From Pontiella agarivorans (lineage in GTDB: Bacteria > Verrucomicrobiota > Kiritimatiellia > Kiritimatiellales > Pontiellaceae), in contig NZ_JARVCO010000012.1 in the NCBI RefSeq assembly GCF_034531395.1, forward strand, positions 62,001 to 126,000: 64,000 bases of DNA, read 5' to 3'. A program made the position numbers and the translations under genes. The notes beneath the pieces were generated by a model, which was given only the letters and a program-made list of their open reading frames with translations, ran no database searches and was not told where the DNA came from. Of the stretch, positions 3,247-13,427 are shown piece after piece. Position 1 is the stretch's first letter, and each line of letters opens with the position of its first letter.

Positions 3247-5076
3247 CTATGCAAGCACCTTCAGCGCAAGGTCGACGATGCCAAACGGGGCGCTGACCTG
3301 ATAGCCGGCGACGCGGTCGGAAATGGCTTCACAGATTTCGCGGGCAATTTCGATGCCCAGAGCGCGGCCGTCTTCCTTGGTTTTTGCATGGCTCATGCGT
3401 TCGAGAATGGCATCCGGAATTTCCACCCCCGGCACTTCATTCGCCAGGAATTCCGCATTACGCAGGGAGACCAGCGGCCAGACACCGGCGACGACCGGAA
3501 TACTGCCGCCTTTTTCTTCCGCGGCATCCATGAAGCGCAGCAGGGCCTCGGGATCAAAAATCGGCTGGGTGATGGCATATTCCGCACCGGCATTGATTTT
3601 GTTGAGATAATGCTGCAACTCGCGTTCCGGTTCCACGGCGCAGGGATTGGCGCCGACACCGATCAGAATACCTGTGGGAGGATTAATGATGTTTCCGCCG
3701 ACATCGATGCCATGATTCAGGTTGTTCACGACCTGCGTCAGACCGACCGCATCAACATCAAAAACCGCGGTTGAGTCGGGGTAATCGCCGAGTTTCGGCG
3801 GGTCTCCGGTAATGATGAGATAGTTGCGCAGGCCGCCGGCATAGCCACCGAGCAGATCGGATTGCATGCCGATCAGGTTGCGATCGCGGCAGCAGTAGTG
3901 CAGCACCGTTTCAATGCCGACTTCGCGCTCGACTGCCAGCGCAGCAACCATGGGGGAAATGCGGGCTGATGCCCGCGGACCGTCAGGAATGTTGATGGCG
4001 TCAATTCCGGCCTCTTTGCACGTTCGGCACTGGGCGAGCATCGGCTTGAGATCGATGGAGCGCGGCGGTGTGATTTCCACACTGGTCACTTTTTCGCCGC
4101 GGGCCAGTTTGGCGCCGAATCCGCATTTTTCCGCCGCAGGAATGACCTCCACTTCCGGCGCTTCGTGATCGTCGTGCCGGGCAATCGCGATGTGCTGTTT
4201 GACCCCGGTCATCGATTTAATGCTTTTGGCCATTGTGGCGATGTCGGCCGGGGTTGTACCGCAGCATCCGCCGACGCCGCGGACGCCGAGCTGGATCATG
4301 CGTTTAGCGTATTCGGTGAAATATTCCGGGGAAGCCATATAGATCATACGGCCGTCAACTTCCTGCGGAAGGCCGGCATTGGCCATGACCACTAGCGGTT
4401 TTGTGGTATGGGGCAGGGCGCGTTCAGCGTTGCTGTAGGCCGCCGCCGGTCCGACGCCGCAGTTGAGGCCGACGCCGTCGACATTGGAGTCATTTTCCAG
4501 GGTTTGGATAATCTGTTCGATGGGGCGTCCTTTTACGGTTTTGCCTTCTTTCCCGGCTGTCATGGAAACGAAGACCGGTCGCCCGAATTCCTTTGCCACT
4601 TTGGCGGCAAGCTGGGCTTCCTGCACATGCGAGAACGTTTCGAAAAGAAAGAAATCGACGCCTTCATCGGCCAGTACAGCAATCTGTTCCCGGAAAATTT
4701 CCGCCAGTTCACCGGCTTTGGATTCCAGAAAGACGGAAGCGGATTTGAGGATCGGTCCGACTGATCCGGCAACCAGCGCATCTGGTCCGGCCGCATTGCG
4801 TGCGAGCCGGACCGCGGCACGGTTGATGGCTTCGAGCTGGTCGGCCAGACCGTGGCCGGTCAGTTTGAGACGGTTGGCCCCGAACGTGTTGGTTTCAATA
4901 ACGTCTGCGCCGGCGTCGGCATATTCCTGATGTATTCCGGCAATCAGTTTCGGGTTGGTGACACACAGATGTTCGTAGCACGTGTTGATGAATACGCCCT
5001 TCGAATAAATCATCGTTCCCATCGCCCCGTCGAAGATGAGGGGATGTTCTGTCAAACGTTCAAGAATGTTTTTCAT
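3247..5076 (-). CDS. Bifunctional homocysteine S-methyltransferase / methylenetetrahydrofolate reductase
   Basis: Fusion of about 609 residues, arranged like Bacillus YitJ. The N-terminal half is a zinc-dependent homocysteine methyltransferase barrel with [10 protein letters not shown] at the start and the zinc ligands Cys206 (in GLNCGVG) and Cys271-Cys272 (in GGCCGTTP). The C-terminal half (from about residue 335, beginning SVEITPPRS) is a MetF-type FAD barrel that reduces methylenetetrahydrofolate to methyltetrahydrofolate. I chose the ATG at 5074-5076 because AGGA lies nine bases upstream and the protein then begins like its relatives; an in-frame ATG at 5083-5085 is possible. It lies 38 bases after metH on the same strand and is probably cotranscribed, so the pair would make methyltetrahydrofolate and use it for methionine. 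Which methyl donor its own methyltransferase half uses is unknown. Confidence 0.93.
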   Translation of the reverse strand: MKNILERLTEHPLIFDGAMGTMIYSKGVFINTCYEHLCVTNPKLIAGIHQEYADAGADVIETNTFGANRLKLTGHGLADQLEAINRAAVRLARNAAGPDALVAGSVGPILKSASVFLESKAGELAEIFREQIAVLADEGVDFFLFETFSHVQEAQLAAKVAKEFGRPVFVSMTAGKEGKTVKGRPIEQIIQTLENDSNVDGVGLNCGVGPAAAYSNAERALPHTTKPLVVMANAGLPQEVDGRMIYMASPEYFTEYAKRMIQLGVRGVGGCCGTTPADIATMAKSIKSMTGVKQHIAIARHDDHEAPEVEVIPAAEKCGFGAKLARGEKVTSVEITPPRSIDLKPMLAQCRTCKEAGIDAINIPDGPRASARISPMVAALAVEREVGIETVLHYCCRDRNLIGMQSDLLGGYAGGLRNYLIITGDPPKLGDYPDSTAVFDVDAVGLTQVVNNLNHGIDVGGNIINPPTGILIGVGANPCAVEPERELQHYLNKINAGAEYAITQPIFDPEALLRFMDAAEEKGGSIPVVAGVWPLVSLRNAEFLANEVPGVEIPDAILERMSHAKTKEDGRALGIEIAREICEAISDRVAGYQVSAPFGIVDLALKVLA

Positions 5077-5114
5077 ATCTGTCATTCCTATTATTCCACG
5101 ATGGGGAATCAGCT

Positions 5115-8100
5115 TCAGTAATTGTATCCGAGGCTGGGGGCCAGCCATTTTTCGGCGGTTTTCATATCCCAGCCTTTACGTTCGGCATAGTCGGCAACTT
5201 GGTCTTTGTTGATTCGGCCGAGCGGGAAATAGCGGGATTCCGGATGCGAGAAGTAGAGGCCGGACACCGAGCTCGGCGGCGTCATTGCCATGGACTCTGT
5301 CAGTTCAATCCCGGTCCGTTTCGTTGTCTCCAGAAGTTGGAAAATGGTTTTCTTTTCGGTGTGGTCCGGGCAGGCCGGATACCCGGCCGCCGGGCGGATG
5401 CCCTGATATTTCTCTTTGATCATCTGCTCGATTGTGCAGGTTTCTGCTTTTCCGTAGCCCCAGGCATCGCGCGTCTGTTTATGCAGGTATTCTGCAAACG
5501 CTTCGGCAAGCCGGTCGGAGAGCGCCTGAACCATAATGGCGTTATAGTCGTCGTGATCGGCTTTAAATTCTTCGGCTTTCACGACGGCTTCGGGGCCGGC
5601 CGTGACGGAGAATGCGCCAATGTAGTCAGCACAGCTGGAATCCTTCGGCGCAATGAAATCGCACAGACTGCGGTTCGGCGTTTCATCCTTTTTGATCATC
5701 TGCTGCCGTAGAAAATGCAGGGTATTAATTTTTTCGGTACGTGATTCATCGGCATAGACTTCAATGCTGTCGCCGACGCGCGCGGCCGGGAAGAAGGCGT
5801 GCACACCTTTCGGGGTGAACCAGTCCTCTTCAATAATCTGCTTCAGCATGGCCTGGGCATCGTCGAAAACCTCGCGAGCGCGAGCTCCGGGTTCGCCGGG
5901 TTTTTCAAGAATGGTCGGGTATTTCCCTTCCAGTTCCCAGGTCCAGAAAAACGGAGTCCAATCGATCCATTCGGCCAGTTCTTTTATCGTGATGTTGACC
6001 TCGCGAGTGCCGATAAATTCCGGGGTGGGCGGCACGTAGCCTTTCCAGTCGAAGGGCAGGGCGCGTGCGCGTGCATTTTCCAGGCTTCGGAACTCGCGGA
6101 CTTCCTGCGAGGCTTCGTGCTGCTCTTTGATGGCGTTGTATTCAAACTTCACCGCTTTCTGGAATTTTTCATCGCCACTGAGGATGGACTGTACCACGGT
6201 GACGGCGCGCGAGGCATCGAGCACATGCATGGAGAGTCCGCTGAATTCGGGCGCAATTTTGACCGCGGTGTGTTTTTTACTGGTGGTGGCTCCGCCGATC
6301 AGCAGCGGTGTTTTCAGGCCTTCGCGTTCCATCTCTTTGGCGACGTGCACCATTTCATCGAGCGACGGGGTAATTAGACCGGAAAGGCCAATGATATCTG
6401 CTCCCCATTCACGGGCTTCTTTCAGAATGGTTTCCCACGGCACCATAACGCCGATGTCTTTTACTTCGAAATTGTTGCAGGCGAGTACGACGCCGACGAT
6501 GTTCTTTCCGATGTCATGCACGTCGCCTTTTACCGTAGCGAGCAGGATTTTTCCGGCCGAGGAAGCTTCTCCTTCTTCTTTTTCCTCCTCCATATAAGGC
6601 AGGAGGTGAGCCACGCCTTTTTTCATGACCCGGGCGGATTTTACCACCTGCGGAAGGAACATTTTTCCGGATCCGAACAGGTCGCCGACCACATCCATGC
6701 CGGCCATCAGCGGACCTTCGATCACGTGAAGCGGCCGATCGTATTTCTGCCGGGCTTCTTCCACATCGTCTACAACATATTCGACGATGCCTTTCACCAG
6801 GGCGTGTTTGAGCCGTTCTTCCACGCTGGCTTCGCGCCAGGCCTGGGTTTCGACTTCTTTTTTTGCACCGCTACCTTCGGCTTTAATCTTTTCGGCATAG
6901 TCGATCAGTTTTTCGGTGGCTTCTTCATTGCGGTTGAGCACCACATCCTCGACGAGAGTCATCAGTTCTTTCGGAACCTCGTCGTAAACTTCGAGCATGC
7001 CCGGGTTGACAATTCCCATATTCAGACCGGCTTCCGTGCCATGGTAGAGGAAGGCGGCGTGAATGGCTTCGCGAACCCGGTTGTTGCCGCGGAATGAAAA
7101 CGAGACATTACTGATGCCGCCGCTGACGGAGACGCCGGGAAGCGTTTGGCGAATGACTTTGGTGGCTTCAAAGAACGAAACAGCGTTGATGCGGTGTTCT
7201 TCCATGCCGGTGCCGACCGGGAAGACGTTGGGATCAAAAATAATGTCGGTCGGGTCGATGCCGATTTCGTCCACAAGGATCCGATAAGCTCTGGTGCAGA
7301 TTTCGATCCGCCGTTCGGTGGTGTCGGCCTGGCCTTTTTCGTCGAAGGCCATAACCACCATACCGGCACCGTAGCGCTGAATTTTCCGTGCATGTTCGCG
7401 GAACTGGTCTTCGCCTTCCTTCATACTGATTGAGTTGACGATGCCTTTGCCCTGAATGCATTTCAGGCCGGCTTCGATGACCTCCCATTTTGAAGAGTCG
7501 ATCATGATCGGAACGCGGCAGATGTCCGGTTCGGATGCGACCAGATTCAGAAATTTAACCATCATATCGACGGAATCGATGAGGCCTTCATCCATGTTGA
7601 TATCAATCAGATTGGCCCCGGCTTCCACCTGCTGAAGGGCAATCTGAAGGGCTTCATCGAGATTACCTTCGCGAATCAGGCGTGCAAATTTCGGCGAGCC
7701 GGTAATGTTGGAACGCTCGCCGACCATCACCAGATTCATTTCGGGGGTGATGCGCAGCGGTTCAAGTCCGCTGAAGCGCGGTGTGCTAGACCGTGCCGGA
7801 GGAATACGCGGCGGATATTTTTTTACGGCAGCGGCAAGTCCCTGAATGTGGGCGGGCGTGGTGCCGCAGCATCCGCCCCAGATATTGGCAAGACCGTGTT
7901 TGGCAAAGTCGTCATAAACCCGGGCCATGTCTTCGGGCGTGTCATCATAGCCCCCGAATGCATTCGGCAGTCCGGCGTTGGCATAAATGCTGATGTAGCA
8001 GTGGGCCACATTGGAAAGCTCTTCGAGATAGGGGCGCATATCTTCAGCACCTAATGCGCAGTTAAGGCCGACCGAAACCGGATTGGCGTGTTCGATGGAA

Positions 8101-9120: not shown

Positions 9121-10314
9121 TCAGTCTAAGTCTGACCCGCGGCGCAGACTGCTGATGCCGTACTTTTCTCTGATGGCATCGGCGGCCCGGCTGAGGCGGT
9201 TTCGTTTTTCGTGGCGTGCGGTGTCGGGGGAATCGAACAGATTCATCTGGAGGGTCCGGGGTTTGTCGGATTCGGTGAGTCCGCTGGTGCCGAAGCCGAT
9301 CAGCCGGACGGGACGGTGGCGGAGGTGTTCGTTGAGCAGTTCCATACCGACTTCCCGCAGGGTGATGTCGTCGTTGGCCGGAATGGCGATTTTGGTCTGG
9401 CGGGTGATGGTGGTGAAGTCGCTCCATCGTAAACGCAGGTGAACGGTGGTCGCATAAAAACCGGCTTTGCGGAGTCGTGCAGCAACTTTATCGATCAGGC
9501 GTTTGTACGTTGCTTCGATCTGTTCCCGATCGGTGATGTCATGTCGGAAGGTGGTTTCGTTGGAAATGCTTTTTTCATCGGCCCCGGTGCCGATTTTCCG
9601 GTCGTCAATTCCGCGGCACAGGCGGGAGAAGCCATAGGCGGATTTTGGGCCGAGGACCTTTTCCAGACGTTGGAAGTCGAAGTTTTGGAGATCGCCGATG
9701 GTGGAGATGCCAAGGGAGAGCAGCTTTTTCTGTGTCACTTTACCTACGCCCCACATACGGCCGATGGGCATGGGGGCGAGCATTTTCTCGATGGCTTCCT
9801 GATTGAACGGAACGACGGTGAGGCCGTCCGGTTTATTCATATCGGAGGCGAGCTTGGCGAGAAACATATTCGGTGCAACGCCCACGGATGCGGTCAGCTG
9901 TGTCTGTTCCCTGATGTGGTTACGGATTTTTTCGGCCATGGTTTTTCCATCGCCGAAGAGGTGCCGGGCACCGGTGACATCGAGAAAGGCTTCATCAATG
10001 GAAAGGGGCATGACGTGAGGGGTATATGATTCGAAGATGCGCATGATTTCGCGCGAAACAGCTTTGTAATTGGCCATGTTGTTCGAAACGAAAACTGCAT
10101 GCGGGCATTTTTGTTTTGCGATGCGGGAGGGCATGGCGGAGTGTATGCCGTATTTGCGCGCTTCGTAAGACGCGGCTGCCACAACGCCGCGCTGGTCGGC
10201 CGCCGCCCCGACAACAACGGGTTTGCCGCGGAGTTCCGGATGGTCGCGTTGTTCCACGGAGGCGAAAAAGGCATCCATGTCGACGTGCAGAAAGGTCTGG
10301 GGATTTTGTTTCAT
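9121..10314 (-). CDS. dinB: DNA polymerase IV (Y family)
   Basis: Error-prone translesion DNA polymerase of 397 residues. The N-terminal metal-binding motif FLHVDMDAFFASVE (about residues 8-21), the second catalytic motif PLSIDEAFLDVTG (about 103-115), the helix-hairpin-helix thumb (MWGVGKVTQKKLLSLGI) and the little-finger domain are all in place; the length is slightly above the usual 350. No C-terminal clamp-binding QLxLF-type peptide is unambiguous, though LQMNLF at about 351-356 fits one. The start lies two bases after a TTCCA-N5-TGGAA dyad whose GGAAG also serves as Shine-Dalgarno sequence. It stands alone on the minus strand and ends in a strong terminator. No LexA-type box of a known kind is visible. 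Confidence 0.96.
   Translation of the reverse strand: MKQNPQTFLHVDMDAFFASVEQRDHPELRGKPVVVGAAADQRGVVAAASYEARKYGIHSAMPSRIAKQKCPHAVFVSNNMANYKAVSREIMRIFESYTPHVMPLSIDEAFLDVTGARHLFGDGKTMAEKIRNHIREQTQLTASVGVAPNMFLAKLASDMNKPDGLTVVPFNQEAIEKMLAPMPIGRMWGVGKVTQKKLLSLGISTIGDLQNFDFQRLEKVLGPKSAYGFSRLCRGIDDRKIGTGADEKSISNETTFRHDITDREQIEATYKRLIDKVAARLRKAGFYATTVHLRLRWSDFTTITRQTKIAIPANDDITLREVGMELLNEHLRHRPVRLIGFGTSGLTESDKPRTLQMNLFDSPDTARHEKRNRLSRAADAIREKYGISSLRRGSDLD
9661..9675. repeat. TTCCA-N5-TGGAA dyad inside dinB
   Basis: Exact copy with inner bases GACGT, inside the dinB coding region. On the minus strand it reads in frame as codons for F-Q-R-L-E, so codon choice alone could produce it. Confidence 0.6.
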
Positions 10315-10316
10315 TC

Positions 10317-10331
10317 TTCCAAAGGCTGGAA
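10317..10331. repeat. TTCCA-N5-TGGAA dyad abutting the dinB start
   Basis: Exact copy, TTCCAAAGGCTGGAA, ending two bases before the dinB ATG on the minus strand. The same 15 bases recur inside pta at 49489. Confidence 0.8.
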
Positions 10332-10410
10332 ATCTACATTGGGTTAATGCTTTTCATAGAGCGAATATCATTTAGACTGATTTGCAATTCACTTATTAAA
10401 ACACACGGTT

Positions 10411-11709
10411 ATGGCCATGGAAGATAAAACACATTCCCAGGAAGTGCGGGATGCCCGCGACGTGATTTTGGATCTGAACTTTGTTCCGCAGTGGGCCAGG
10501 AAGCCGCCGGGAGAAAATCATTATTCCAGAAAGGATTTTGATGAGCGCCCGAGGCGCGAAGGCCGGCCCCGCCGGGAGGGGAACCGGGATGACCGTGACC
10601 GCTCTAAACGACCGCGCCGGGATGATCGTCCGCGCGATGATCGACCGAGACGGGAGTCGCGCGAGCCGGTTAAAGAGTTGCCGATCAGCGTTTCATTTCT
10701 GCCGGAGCAAAAGCGGCTGGCCTCGCTGGTCCGTCAAATTCACCATTCGCGCCGTGCCTATCCGCTGATGGACCTGGCCAGTCTGCTGATTCATGATGCT
10801 GAAGGTTATCTGGTTAAAATTGAAGTGAACAAAGAGGCGCCTGATTTTCATCTCTACCAGTGTAAAGCGTGCAAGGCGGTGGCGGCATCGCAAGAGCTGA
10901 TTGAGCAGCATATTCTATCGAGCCATCTGGAAGACCGATATGAAAAAGAGGAGATCGAGGTCGATCCGCCTTCGGGAAGTTTTCCTGGGGTTGCGCGTTG
11001 TACAAAAACCGGAATTCTCCTGGGGCCGCCGAATCATCACAGTTATAATGACAAGGTGGCGGAAGTGCATGCGGCACGCTTTTCGAATATGCCGTTGGAG
11101 GACTACAAGCGTTTTATTGAAATTGTGAAAGATGAAGAGCTTGTGGAGCAATGGAAAGATGAGAGCCGGAAGCAGACGGTTTATCGGTTGAAGTCTGATC
11201 CTGAAGCGGAACCGGTGGATTTGAAAAAAGCTGAAATTGAGTTTAAAAAACAGCTGCCTTCCATGATCGAGAAAACGCACCGTGCCATTGTGCCTTCTGT
11301 AATTGCGCGGGAGCTGGATGACCGGGATATTACGTTTGCAATCAAGCGGGTCTGGAGTAAAGAGAGCCGGTTTCCGCTGACGATGTCTTTTTCGATGCGG
11401 GCCGCATTCCGGCATATGCATCTGCATTTGTTTAAAGCCGGAAAAATCAACTTTGTAACGCATATTAAACCGCATCCGATTAAGCCGCAGGACACGGTGC
11501 CGAATATTGCCGAGGTGCTGATGTTTCTGAAGGAAAATCCCGGATCAACACGAGAGCAGCTGCTGGAAGTGCTTCATCCTTCGCTCGATCCGAAATCGGC
11601 CGAGGCCAAGGATGCTCTGAAGCCGATCAGCTGGCTGGTTGAACGCGGCCATTTGATTGAATTCTTCAACGGAACCCTGTCGGTGCCGATTGGTCGTCAG
11701 CGCCGGTAA
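10411..11709 (+). CDS. Basic protein with RD/RE-rich N-terminus and a C2H2-like zinc finger
   Basis: 432 residues; I do not recognise a named family, although similar conserved hypotheticals exist in PVC bacteria as far as I recall. Residues about 35-90 are a low-complexity string of Arg-Asp-Arg and Arg-Arg-Glu units, typical of RNA-contacting disordered tails. A Cys-X2-Cys-X12-His-X4-His pattern follows (Cys151, Cys154, His167, His172), the spacing of a classical C2H2 finger. The C-terminal third (about 335-432) looks like a compact helical, winged-helix-type fold (STREQLLEVLHPSL, WLVERGHLIEF). The start could be the ATG at 10411 or at 10417; neither has a clear Shine-Dalgarno sequence. A nucleic-acid-binding role is inferred. 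The last 44 bases overlap the 3' end of the convergent dehydrogenase gene. Confidence 0.8.
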   Translation: MAMEDKTHSQEVRDARDVILDLNFVPQWARKPPGENHYSRKDFDERPRREGRPRREGNRDDRDRSKRPRRDDRPRDDRPRRESREPVKELPISVSFLPEQKRLASLVRQIHHSRRAYPLMDLASLLIHDAEGYLVKIEVNKEAPDFHLYQCKACKAVAASQELIEQHILSSHLEDRYEKEEIEVDPPSGSFPGVARCTKTGILLGPPNHHSYNDKVAEVHAARFSNMPLEDYKRFIEIVKDEELVEQWKDESRKQTVYRLKSDPEAEPVDLKKAEIEFKKQLPSMIEKTHRAIVPSVIARELDDRDITFAIKRVWSKESRFPLTMSFSMRAAFRHMHLHLFKAGKINFVTHIKPHPIKPQDTVPNIAEVLMFLKENPGSTREQLLEVLHPSLDPKSAEAKDALKPISWLVERGHLIEFFNGTLSVPIGRQRR

Positions 11710-12574
11710 AGGTAACGGCGGGCGCGATGCCCAGTTGCCGGTATGTGAGACTCATGACCCGCTCAATGCAGAGCGGGTCTTTTGCGTAGGCCGGGAACGG
11801 TACCTGTTTTCCTGAATGGCTGATGAGGGCGCCGGAGATGTTTCTGAATCCGGGATCGAGCACGGCTGCTGCATAGGTTTCCGCCATTTTTTCGGGGGTA
11901 ATGGAAAACAGTGCTTTTAAGGTGTAGAGGTTTTTCAGTCCCTGCGGCAGATCCGGAAAGCGGTTGATGTCGATTTTTACATTGGTGACGCGGATGCAGT
12001 TGGCGGTGGCCATGGTTCCGGTAAGCTGCTGCGCCAGCCAGACGGTATAGATGCTTTGGGCCATTTTGGATTGATAGTAGGCTGCTGCCGGAGTGAAATG
12101 GCGGTTTCCAAACGTGGGATCTTCCGTGTCCACGGTCTGGAAGGGGCGGGCGAGTAAACCTTTGGAGGAAATATTGATAATTCGTCCCTGAGGACTGGCG
12201 ATGATGTAATCCATCAGGCGGTCTGTCAGCAGGACCGGTGCGAGATGATTGGTGAACCAGATGCGTTCAAAGCCGTCGGAGGTCAGTTCGCGTTCGGTTT
12301 CGGAAAGGTTGAAGTCCGCGGCATTGTTGATCAGGCCGTCGATCCGGTTGAGTTCGCGGTGGGCCCAGTCGGTGAATTCATGGATGCTGCGCCGGGAGGC
12401 CAGATCGAGTTCGGCTGCGATTGTGTTTTTTCCTATTTCATGCCGGACCTGCTCGGCTTTTTCCCGACTGCGGCAGGCGAGAATTACGACGTGGCCGGCA
12501 TTGGCGAGATGTTTTGCGGCTGCTTTGCCGATCTCGGAGTTGGCTCCGGTGAGTATAATGGTTTTTGCGGGCAT
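11666..12574 (-). CDS. Short-chain dehydrogenase/reductase
   Basis: 302-residue NAD(P)-dependent oxidoreductase with a single Rossmann domain. The cofactor motif is TGANSEIG (residues 9-16), followed by CRSREKAE, whose Arg suggests NADP preference. The NNAA motif is at about 86-89 (LINNAADF), the catalytic Ser lies in INISSKG and the catalytic Tyr-X3-Lys in AYYQSKMAQ. It belongs to the classical or retinol-dehydrogenase-like branch; the substrate cannot be told. The stop lies inside the 3' end of the convergent zinc-finger gene (44-base antiparallel overlap). No operon partner on its strand. Confidence 0.9.
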   Translation of the reverse strand: MPAKTIILTGANSEIGKAAAKHLANAGHVVILACRSREKAEQVRHEIGKNTIAAELDLASRRSIHEFTDWAHRELNRIDGLINNAADFNLSETERELTSDGFERIWFTNHLAPVLLTDRLMDYIIASPQGRIINISSKGLLARPFQTVDTEDPTFGNRHFTPAAAYYQSKMAQSIYTVWLAQQLTGTMATANCIRVTNVKIDINRFPDLPQGLKNLYTLKALFSITPEKMAETYAAAVLDPGFRNISGALISHSGKQVPFPAYAKDPLCIERVMSLTYRQLGIAPAVTFTGADDQSAPTGFR

Positions 12575-12633
12575 TGAAGGAGGGTAGAAGAATCCGATGG
12601 CGGCGGCAATGTTCCTGGGCCGGGAACGTTGTT

Positions 12634-12648
12634 TTTCAAGGATTGGAA
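12634..12648. repeat. Degenerate TTCCA-N5-TGGAA dyad
   Basis: TTTCAAGGATTGGAA: one mismatch (T for C) to the dispersed dyad. It lies 63 bases before the start of the GspC-like gene, which carries a second, exact copy at its ATG. Confidence 0.5.
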
Positions 12649-12705
12649 GCGGGCTTGACGAACCGCGGGTCAGCGCCCATTGTTTTATGTATTCAATGAA
12701 GGAAT

Positions 12706-12720
12706 TTCCAATGGCTGGAA
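12706..12720. repeat. TTCCA-N5-TGGAA dyad spanning a start codon
   Basis: Exact copy TTCCAATGGCTGGAA; the ATG of the GspC-like gene is bases 12711-12713, in the middle of the dyad. Confidence 0.75.
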
Positions 12721-13427
12721 GACTGATACAGATGATTTTGATGGCGGCCGTGTCGGCGGCTGTTTTTGCTGATGCCGAGGAGTATAAGCGGGAGCGTTAC
12801 GATGTGATTGTGGATCGCTCGCCTTTTGGTGAGGATTCGGGGATTGCTGCGGATCTGGCGCGGGAAGAGGCGCAAAGTAAGAAAGATGCCGCCGAGGCGG
12901 CTAAGCTGGCCAGGGAGATGGAAAAGAAGATACGTCTTTGTTATCTGCTGGAAGCTGATAATGGCGAGTTGCGTGCGGGATTCGAAAATAAAGGGGCAAA
13001 GCCCGGGGATCCCCGCAGTATTATGCTGCGGCTGAATGAGAGTTTTCAGGGCATGAAGCTGACGGCTATTGATGTGTTGAGAAGCAGTGCGACTCTTGAG
13101 ATGAATGGGAAGCCGGTTACCTTTGAATTGACACAGGCGGCAGCGGCCACGCCGGCTAAAAAAGCCGGGCCGGTTGCGCAACGGCGCAAATTCGGCAGCG
13201 GGTTTCGTCGTCCGGAGCAGCCGACAAAACCGGCTGAGCCTGAGTTGACCCCTGAAGAGCAGGCTGCAAAGCGAGAAGAGGTGCGTGAAAATTTGCGCCA
13301 GTACCAGATGGAGGTTATTCGTCAGGGCATGCCGCCTCTTCCGATTCCGCTGACTCAGGAGATGGATGATCAGTTGGTGGAGGAGGGGATTCTTCCGCCG
13401 AGCGGTCCGGCAGCTCCGGGACCGTGA
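12711..13427 (+). CDS. Exported GspC/PilP-like protein, probable type II secretion partner
   Basis: 238 residues. It starts with a signal peptide (MAGRLIQMILMAAVSAAVFADA), continues with an Ala/Glu/Lys-rich helix, then a small beta domain (about 75-140; SFQGMKLTAIDVLRSSATLEMNGKPV) that resembles the homology region of GspC or PilP proteins, and a Pro/Glu-rich tail. I chose the ATG at 12711 over an earlier in-frame ATG (12597) because GAAGGAA lies six bases upstream and the protein then begins with a clean signal peptide. It converges on a GspE-type ATPase with only nine bases between the stop codons, which supports a secretion role. The family assignment is weak; another periplasmic adaptor is possible. 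Confidence 0.6.
   Translation: MAGRLIQMILMAAVSAAVFADAEEYKRERYDVIVDRSPFGEDSGIAADLAREEAQSKKDAAEAAKLAREMEKKIRLCYLLEADNGELRAGFENKGAKPGDPRSIMLRLNESFQGMKLTAIDVLRSSATLEMNGKPVTFELTQAAAATPAKKAGPVAQRRKFGSGFRRPEQPTKPAEPELTPEEQAAKREEVRENLRQYQMEVIRQGMPPLPIPLTQEMDDQLVEEGILPPSGPAAPGP

Follow-up and report, generated by a model that had tools for sequence, protein, structure and literature searches.

We tentatively interpret one gene in a 64,000-nucleotide stretch of DNA from Pontiella agarivorans (the window, meaning the whole stretch that was analysed) as encoding a nucleic-acid-binding protein of Verrucomicrobiota and Kiritimatiellota that is usually present as one gene per genome, is apparently inherited vertically and is most likely RNA-binding. 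Taken as a whole, we place this reading close to an even chance, slightly on the doubtful side. The protein combines a conserved N-terminal motif, an arginine-rich arm, a conserved core that carries a C2H2-like finger, and a predicted C-terminal winged helix (Table 1).

Gene, family and inheritance

The frame at 10411-11709 on the forward strand comprises 432 codons in the window translation. The sequence-only reading of this DNA had opened the gene at 10411; its reading frame is right, but relatives favour the second ATG (10417) as the start codon. The corresponding residue, M3, lies opposite a methionine in 102 of 106 alignment rows, and ATGGA(A/T) is aligned in all 10 Pontiellaceae-type leaders compared, among which the additional in-frame ATG six bases 5' of the conserved start occurs in the window sequence only. 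Residue numbers given here count from 10411, and numbers in the predicted model are two lower. The leader upstream of the gene is conserved, and the arrangement of CTTTTC, 17 bases and a TAAACT-like element suggests that it is the gene's own promoter; the TAGACT of the window is TAAACT in six of nine relatives. A strict consensus scan of 10200-11800 returned no sigma-70 site.

Table 1. Features of the gene and its product (window positions; residues numbered from 10411)
Feature	Positions	Strand	Details and basis
Whole gene	10417..11709	+	430 aa from the conserved start; start in the sequence-only reading, 10411
Leader, promoter-like	10350..10378	+	CTTTTC, 17 bases, TAGACT; about 140 upstream bases aligned, 10 loci
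Conserved N-terminal linear motif LxxLxFxPxWAR	10453..10506	+	residues 15-32; alignment
Arg/Asp/Glu-rich arm	10507..10674	+	residues 33-88; low pLDDT and composition
Alpha/beta core domain	10675..11202	+	residues 89-264; block pLDDT about 93-98
C2H2-like finger inserted in core	10855..10938	+	residues 149-176; C151, C154, H167, H172; model and alignment
Most conserved core segment, PPxGxFxxVARCxxSGxLLGPPNHHxY	10969..11046	+	residues 187-212; alignment
Possible first winged-helix domain, inferred	11203..11466	+	residues 265-352; secondary structure and weak Foldseek matches
C-terminal winged-helix domain	11479..11697	+	residues 357-429; VIA-align Z up to 8.6

Among 194 sampled genomes of the phylum, 119 carry the gene, a total that was the same with the single sequence and with an 86-row profile. 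Of the 64 genomes that share at least the window's class, 63 are carriers (same genus 4 of 5, including the window's own; same order 5 of 5; same class 54 of 54), as are 56 of the 130 others; this split assumes, from the way the list is sorted, that 55 matchless genomes missing from it belong to other classes. The single-contig genome G018 is without the gene, while most listed genomes of its family, f32, have it. The protein matches a single place in the window's own genome and in 109 of the 119 carriers overall; the other 10 have two or three matches each, to separate portions of the profile. At one locus (L073, G118 C1:1559392-1562887) the family gene lies in three pieces with a stop inside one match, which is either a broken gene or an assembly error. 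The search reached beyond the phylum through one pattern-based scan of genome contigs, which gave 31 loci, including ones from Kiritimatiellales, Pontiella, Lentisphaerae, Verrucomicrobia and Prosthecobacter, and the family may be spread more widely.

A mobile or phage origin was considered and rejected: the window protein had no match in plasmids or phages, one distant relative had none in plasmids, and none of the three stretches of viral contigs that match the pattern encodes a relative. A role as a defence gene was likewise discarded, as PADLOC matched none of the four members scanned; PHROGs also had no family for these four. Pfam and NCBIfam gave no significant family for the window protein, and Pfam gave none for eight relatives. 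The family was not described among the matches listed in literature searches on bacterial C2H2/MucR fingers and on RNA-binding proteins of Verrucomicrobia, Kiritimatiellia and Akkermansia, and three family peptide strings had no match in the searched literature. It is a widely conserved family of which these searches gave no description.

Gene neighbourhood

Neighbours were tabulated crudely, from longest frames, and the table omits loci at which the family gene lost to a longer overlapping frame. In this table neighbours vary between bacterial families and name no functional partner. Here and in close relatives the neighbours include dinB, a gene for a dehydrogenase and one for a protein resembling the type II secretion ATPase (by Pfam). 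The dinB cluster lies immediately beside it in six of the displayed loci, all from close relatives. An operon with dinB was rejected: dinB is divergent here, its cluster occurs in seven loci, and other families have other neighbours. A second divergent neighbour (cluster 1) accompanies the gene in 16 loci from several families of the class, including L062:3966-5708 and L113:7040-8752; it reaches about 620 aa, and two members scanned had no Pfam match at E 0.01. FtsK-, MurJ- or ThiL-like neighbours, names that we read from the ends of sequences, appear in other families.

Two further frames in the window were recorded. At 12597-13427 (+), a 276-aa frame of cluster 3, found near the gene in eight loci of close relatives, has no significant Pfam match. 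At 3247-5148 (-), beside MetH, lies a frame of 633 aa whose translation looks like a fusion between a homocysteine methyltransferase and a methylenetetrahydrofolate reductase.

Domain architecture and nucleic-acid binding

The full AlphaFold model, built from 86 alignment rows, has a mean pLDDT of 88; block values are 48-67 over the first 80 model residues and about 93-98 for model residues 81 to 420. The low-confidence part begins with the linear motif, which is mostly unstructured in the model. That this motif is a docking site shared with other proteins was rejected on a weak test, a DNA pattern for FVPxWA followed by Arg or some Ser codons in one rigid spelling, whose only match in the genome was the gene itself. 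The arm that follows has median contents, over 104 homologues, of 24% Arg, 16% Asp plus Glu, 16% Gly and 6.5% hydrophobic residues, with R, G, D, E and P together making up 72%; it is at least 20% Arg in 84 of the 104 rows, and RGG-like arms occur in some of the distant members displayed. The arm is probably disordered, the low-confidence model region and the Arg-rich composition both agreeing with what the sequence-only reading had said of the N-terminus. Its title had spoken of an RD-rich tail, which was a misplacement, whereas its reasoning correctly set the Arg/Asp-rich part in the N-terminal arm.

The core, modelled alone (residues 87-264, 85 rows), reached a pLDDT of 91 and a pTM of 0.61. 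In the 106-row alignment the strongest sequence conservation lies C-terminal of the finger and not within it, with Gly189 and His210 each in 105 rows and Trp248 in all 106. No convincing solved counterpart of the core was found with Foldseek (search with the isolated core, in which a CTCF finger array came best at E 0.66), a viral fold library (best E 0.41) or VIA-align (28 of 401 chains at Z of at least 2, best 3.2). The last of these barely probed the core outside the finger, so the core may yet have a known fold.

For the C-terminus, a winged-helix-like fold had been proposed from the sequence, and the predicted model bears this out: VIA-align assigns model residues 354-430 (356-432 in gene numbering) to the winged-helix fold, with matches listed at Z 7.1-8.6 and rmsd 1.7-4.3 A over 55-71 residues, although a Z near 8 may mean merely a common arrangement of elements. 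The matches listed include MecI, MarR and BlaI repressors, the N-terminal part of RNase R and Z-alpha domains. A second winged helix may precede this one. The putative tandem pair draws on secondary structure and on weak Foldseek matches to tandem winged-helix fragments of SelB, ESCRT-II, RPC62 and Stn1 (E 0.08-0.7, rmsd at least 10 A), of which the SelB fragment came first (E 0.077, rmsd 13 A).

Arm and winged helix together indicate nucleic-acid binding, and a regulator of RNA or DNA, as the sequence-only reading had suggested, would be plausible. Within this frame we favour RNA binding, given the predicted architecture and the absence of Hfq and ProQ matches. Models of these two proteins matched none of the 194 phylum genomes (in control genomes they found matches in 5 of 14 and 1 of 14, respectively), and this absence makes an RNA-binding role attractive. 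However, the 75 genomes that do not carry the family show the same absence, which therefore does not single the family out. Several other observations count against RNA: the CsrA model matches 21 of the 194 genomes, including the window's own; DNA is a frequent ligand of winged helices, and the VIA-align list is headed by two repressors, MecI and MarR; and the neighbours name no partner.

Some of the same observations favour a DNA-binding transcription factor or nucleoid organiser, whose winged helix or helices would read DNA while the arm adds non-specific affinity. MecI, MarR and BlaI are among the best of the listed matches to the C-terminal domain, and the gene has its own conserved leader. 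However, their Z-scores may reflect the common arrangement only, there is no conserved neighbour or obvious target, and the arm suits RNA at least equally, which leaves this model possible but, on balance, unlikely. We consider it distinctly unlikely that the protein is a ribosome- or degradosome-associated factor, held in place by the N-terminal motif and contacting rRNA or protein through finger and winged helices. The near-invariance of Trp28 in that motif (103 of 104 rows) speaks for such an attachment, as does the top match of a profile search against PDB sequences, the nucleic acid-binding C2H2 protein 6skg_Bo, which we take to be part of an archaeal ribosome. Yet the E-value of 0.055 for this match is not significant and the second match is the unrelated VP6 (E 0.26); moreover, the crude neighbour table shows no recognised ribosomal or RNase gene alongside, and single-contig G018 manages without the gene.

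Together, these features suggest a model for the favoured RNA-binding protein. The Arg-rich arm would provide a loose hold on RNA and the winged helix or helices a structured contact, while the N-terminal motif may dock the protein to a fixed partner. The zinc finger would act as a clamp on a loop of the core; many relatives would manage this without the Cys pair, often by means of an Asp-Gly turn.

The finger and its ligands

The gene encodes Cys151-X2-Cys154-X12-His167-X4-His172, and a check of the translation confirms the four ligands and the eukaryotic-type spacing that had been claimed for them. The classical C2H2 consensus is C-X2-4-C-X12-H-X3-5-H, to which these residues conform. The pattern C-X2-C-X12-H-X3-5-H occurs in 2 of the 451 stop-to-stop frames of at least 60 aa in the window, the other being a 79-aa frame within the span of another gene; residue shuffling gives a mean of 0.11 per window, and 2000 shuffles of the protein itself never produced the motif. 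The observation is therefore correct and better than chance.

A predicted fold with the Cys and His residues far apart had been named as evidence against a finger. In the model, the stretch superposes on the solved C2H2 fingers 5znf, 1klr and 5vmv with a predicted beta-beta-alpha shape. For 5znf, Foldseek gives 0.5 A over 26 residues (E 3.2, probability 0.82; statistically not strong) and VIA-align 2.3 A over 30 residues (Z 3.2); for Kaiso 5vmv, VIA-align gives 1.4 A over 28 residues (Z 2.1). These scores are weak, as is to be expected of matches over 26-30 residues. The hydrophobic core of a classical finger has an aromatic residue two before the first Cys, Phe four after the second and Leu three before the first His. 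Y149 and I164 fit this scheme and A158 does not; position 158 is Phe in 69 of 106 rows, yet among the 43 rows with a complete CCHH set no more than 22 have Phe or Tyr there. Pfam zf-C2H2 was absent from the window protein's matches, which were listed up to E 1, and the best PF00096 score among eight relatives was 12.7 (L012), against a gathering threshold of 25.2 bits. A genuine C2H2-like fold is probable for the finger, although it is other parts of the protein that stay invariant.

Homologues lacking the Cys/His residues had also been proposed as counter-evidence, and here the outcome is divided: 61 of 104 are without full CCHH and 43 keep all four ligands. Both cysteines are present in 43 rows, the first only in 13, neither in 48 and the second only in none, and 64 of the 104 combine His167 with either His or Cys at position 172. 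Of the 61 with an incomplete set, 35 have Asp154-Gly155, 17 have Pro-Asp-Gly and 11 have SVPDG, and 51 retain Phe158. In a tree built without the finger columns, all 40 CCHH rows that it holds fall within one group of 54; this group contains the tree's same-class or same-order rows and, inside it, three sets of rows without full ligands. The tree needs four changes of ligand state, whereas shuffled labels need about 31 on average. Independent losses of the finger were rejected as a conclusion, since four changes are needed and yet the data are compatible with the CCHH rows forming a single clade (not rejected, p 0.18). Because the tree is unrooted, gain and loss of the finger look the same on it.

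Chance spacing without metal, in favour of which stand the many homologues with incomplete ligands and the frequent lack of the classical Phe/Tyr after the second Cys (Ala in the window), is highly improbable in view of the pattern of the Cys pair, whose second member never occurs alone, the retention of all four ligands by 40 of the 54 rows in one tree group, the resemblance of the model to solved fingers and the rarity of the spacing in shuffles.

The finger looks structural rather than DNA-reading. Classical fingers contact bases through helix positions -1, 2, 3 and 6; the corresponding residues (160, 162, 163 and 166) are variable in the 43 CCHH rows and often acidic or Ala, which is why we read the finger as a structural clamp, and its ligands are replaced elsewhere in the family, so that it is dispensable. 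On both grounds a base-reading DNA finger is not our leading interpretation, and the proposal that the finger reads nucleic acid is unsupported.

The conserved core segment may hold a second metal site, for which C197 and H210 are suggestive candidates in the alignment. C197 is replaced by Ser in one of the 43 rows with a full finger; in the 61 without, 5 have His at this position, 1 has Glu and 4 have a gap. Members of family f5 (L109, L110, L111, L112 and L113) have the ligands C-N/D-Y-G together with a change of Cys197 to His, hinting at a link between finger and Cys197 site. In family f2, nearest to the window's in the tree, L037, L038, L039 and L040 have lost both finger Cys (GSQH), and the two displayed, L037 and L040, also have a shortened hairpin in the conserved segment, without Cys197.

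A bolder reading goes further on both counts. The protein would be a phylum-specific global RNA-binding protein standing in for Hfq and ProQ. Its C2H2 finger, specific to the class, would have arisen in a bacterial protein, independently of Ros/MucR, through conversion between a metal-free hairpin with an Asp-Gly turn (most commonly SVPDG) and a zinc knuckle. We regard this combination as quite improbable. If the conversion did take place, a C2H2 finger could be seen within one family in each of its two states.

Significance and comparison with known systems

The family is without a model in the searched libraries, although it is near-universal in the sampled genomes of the class and frequent across the phylum. 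It occurs in bacteria in which models of the two best-known RNA chaperones matched nothing. Its members also form a natural series of C2H2-like fingers with and without metal ligands on the same scaffold, which makes gain and loss of such fingers in bacteria directly testable.

The likeness to the RNA chaperones Hfq and ProQ is one of possible function only, the window protein having no Pfam match to them. With tandem winged-helix proteins (the C-terminal part of SelB, ESCRT-II, RPC62, Stn1) it shares the predicted C-terminal winged helix and possibly another before it, but Foldseek E-values are 0.08 or worse at an rmsd of at least 10 A, and no sequence relation was found. With classical C2H2 fingers such as ZFY-6 and Kaiso it has in common the C-X2-C-X12-H-X4-H spacing and the beta-beta-alpha-like predicted shape; it differs in having one finger, inside a larger domain, with a variable helix surface and scores under the Pfam cut-offs.

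Ros, in the excerpts of PMC9779718, is a protein of 142 aa with C-X2-C-X9-H-X3-H-H in a zinc domain of 58 residues. Membership of Ros/MucR was rejected, as the window protein does not show this spacing, and the Ros/MucR Pfam family was unlisted for it at E up to 1. The sequence-only reading was therefore right to see no resemblance to Ros, judged by these excerpts: the spacer is 12 here and 9 in Ros, whose zinc domain is larger, and the domain differs too. What the two do share, as far as the excerpted sources go, is behaviour. Ros/MucR is the known group of bacterial Cys2His2 proteins, and among its relatives the Ml proteins continue to bind DNA although they have Cys-Asp-His2 ligands or no longer carry zinc (excerpts of PMC9779718), and a C27D mutant of Ros87 has been studied (excerpt of PMC5745721). 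Both families thus have a bacterial Cys2His2-type finger whose relatives tolerate ligand change or loss of zinc.
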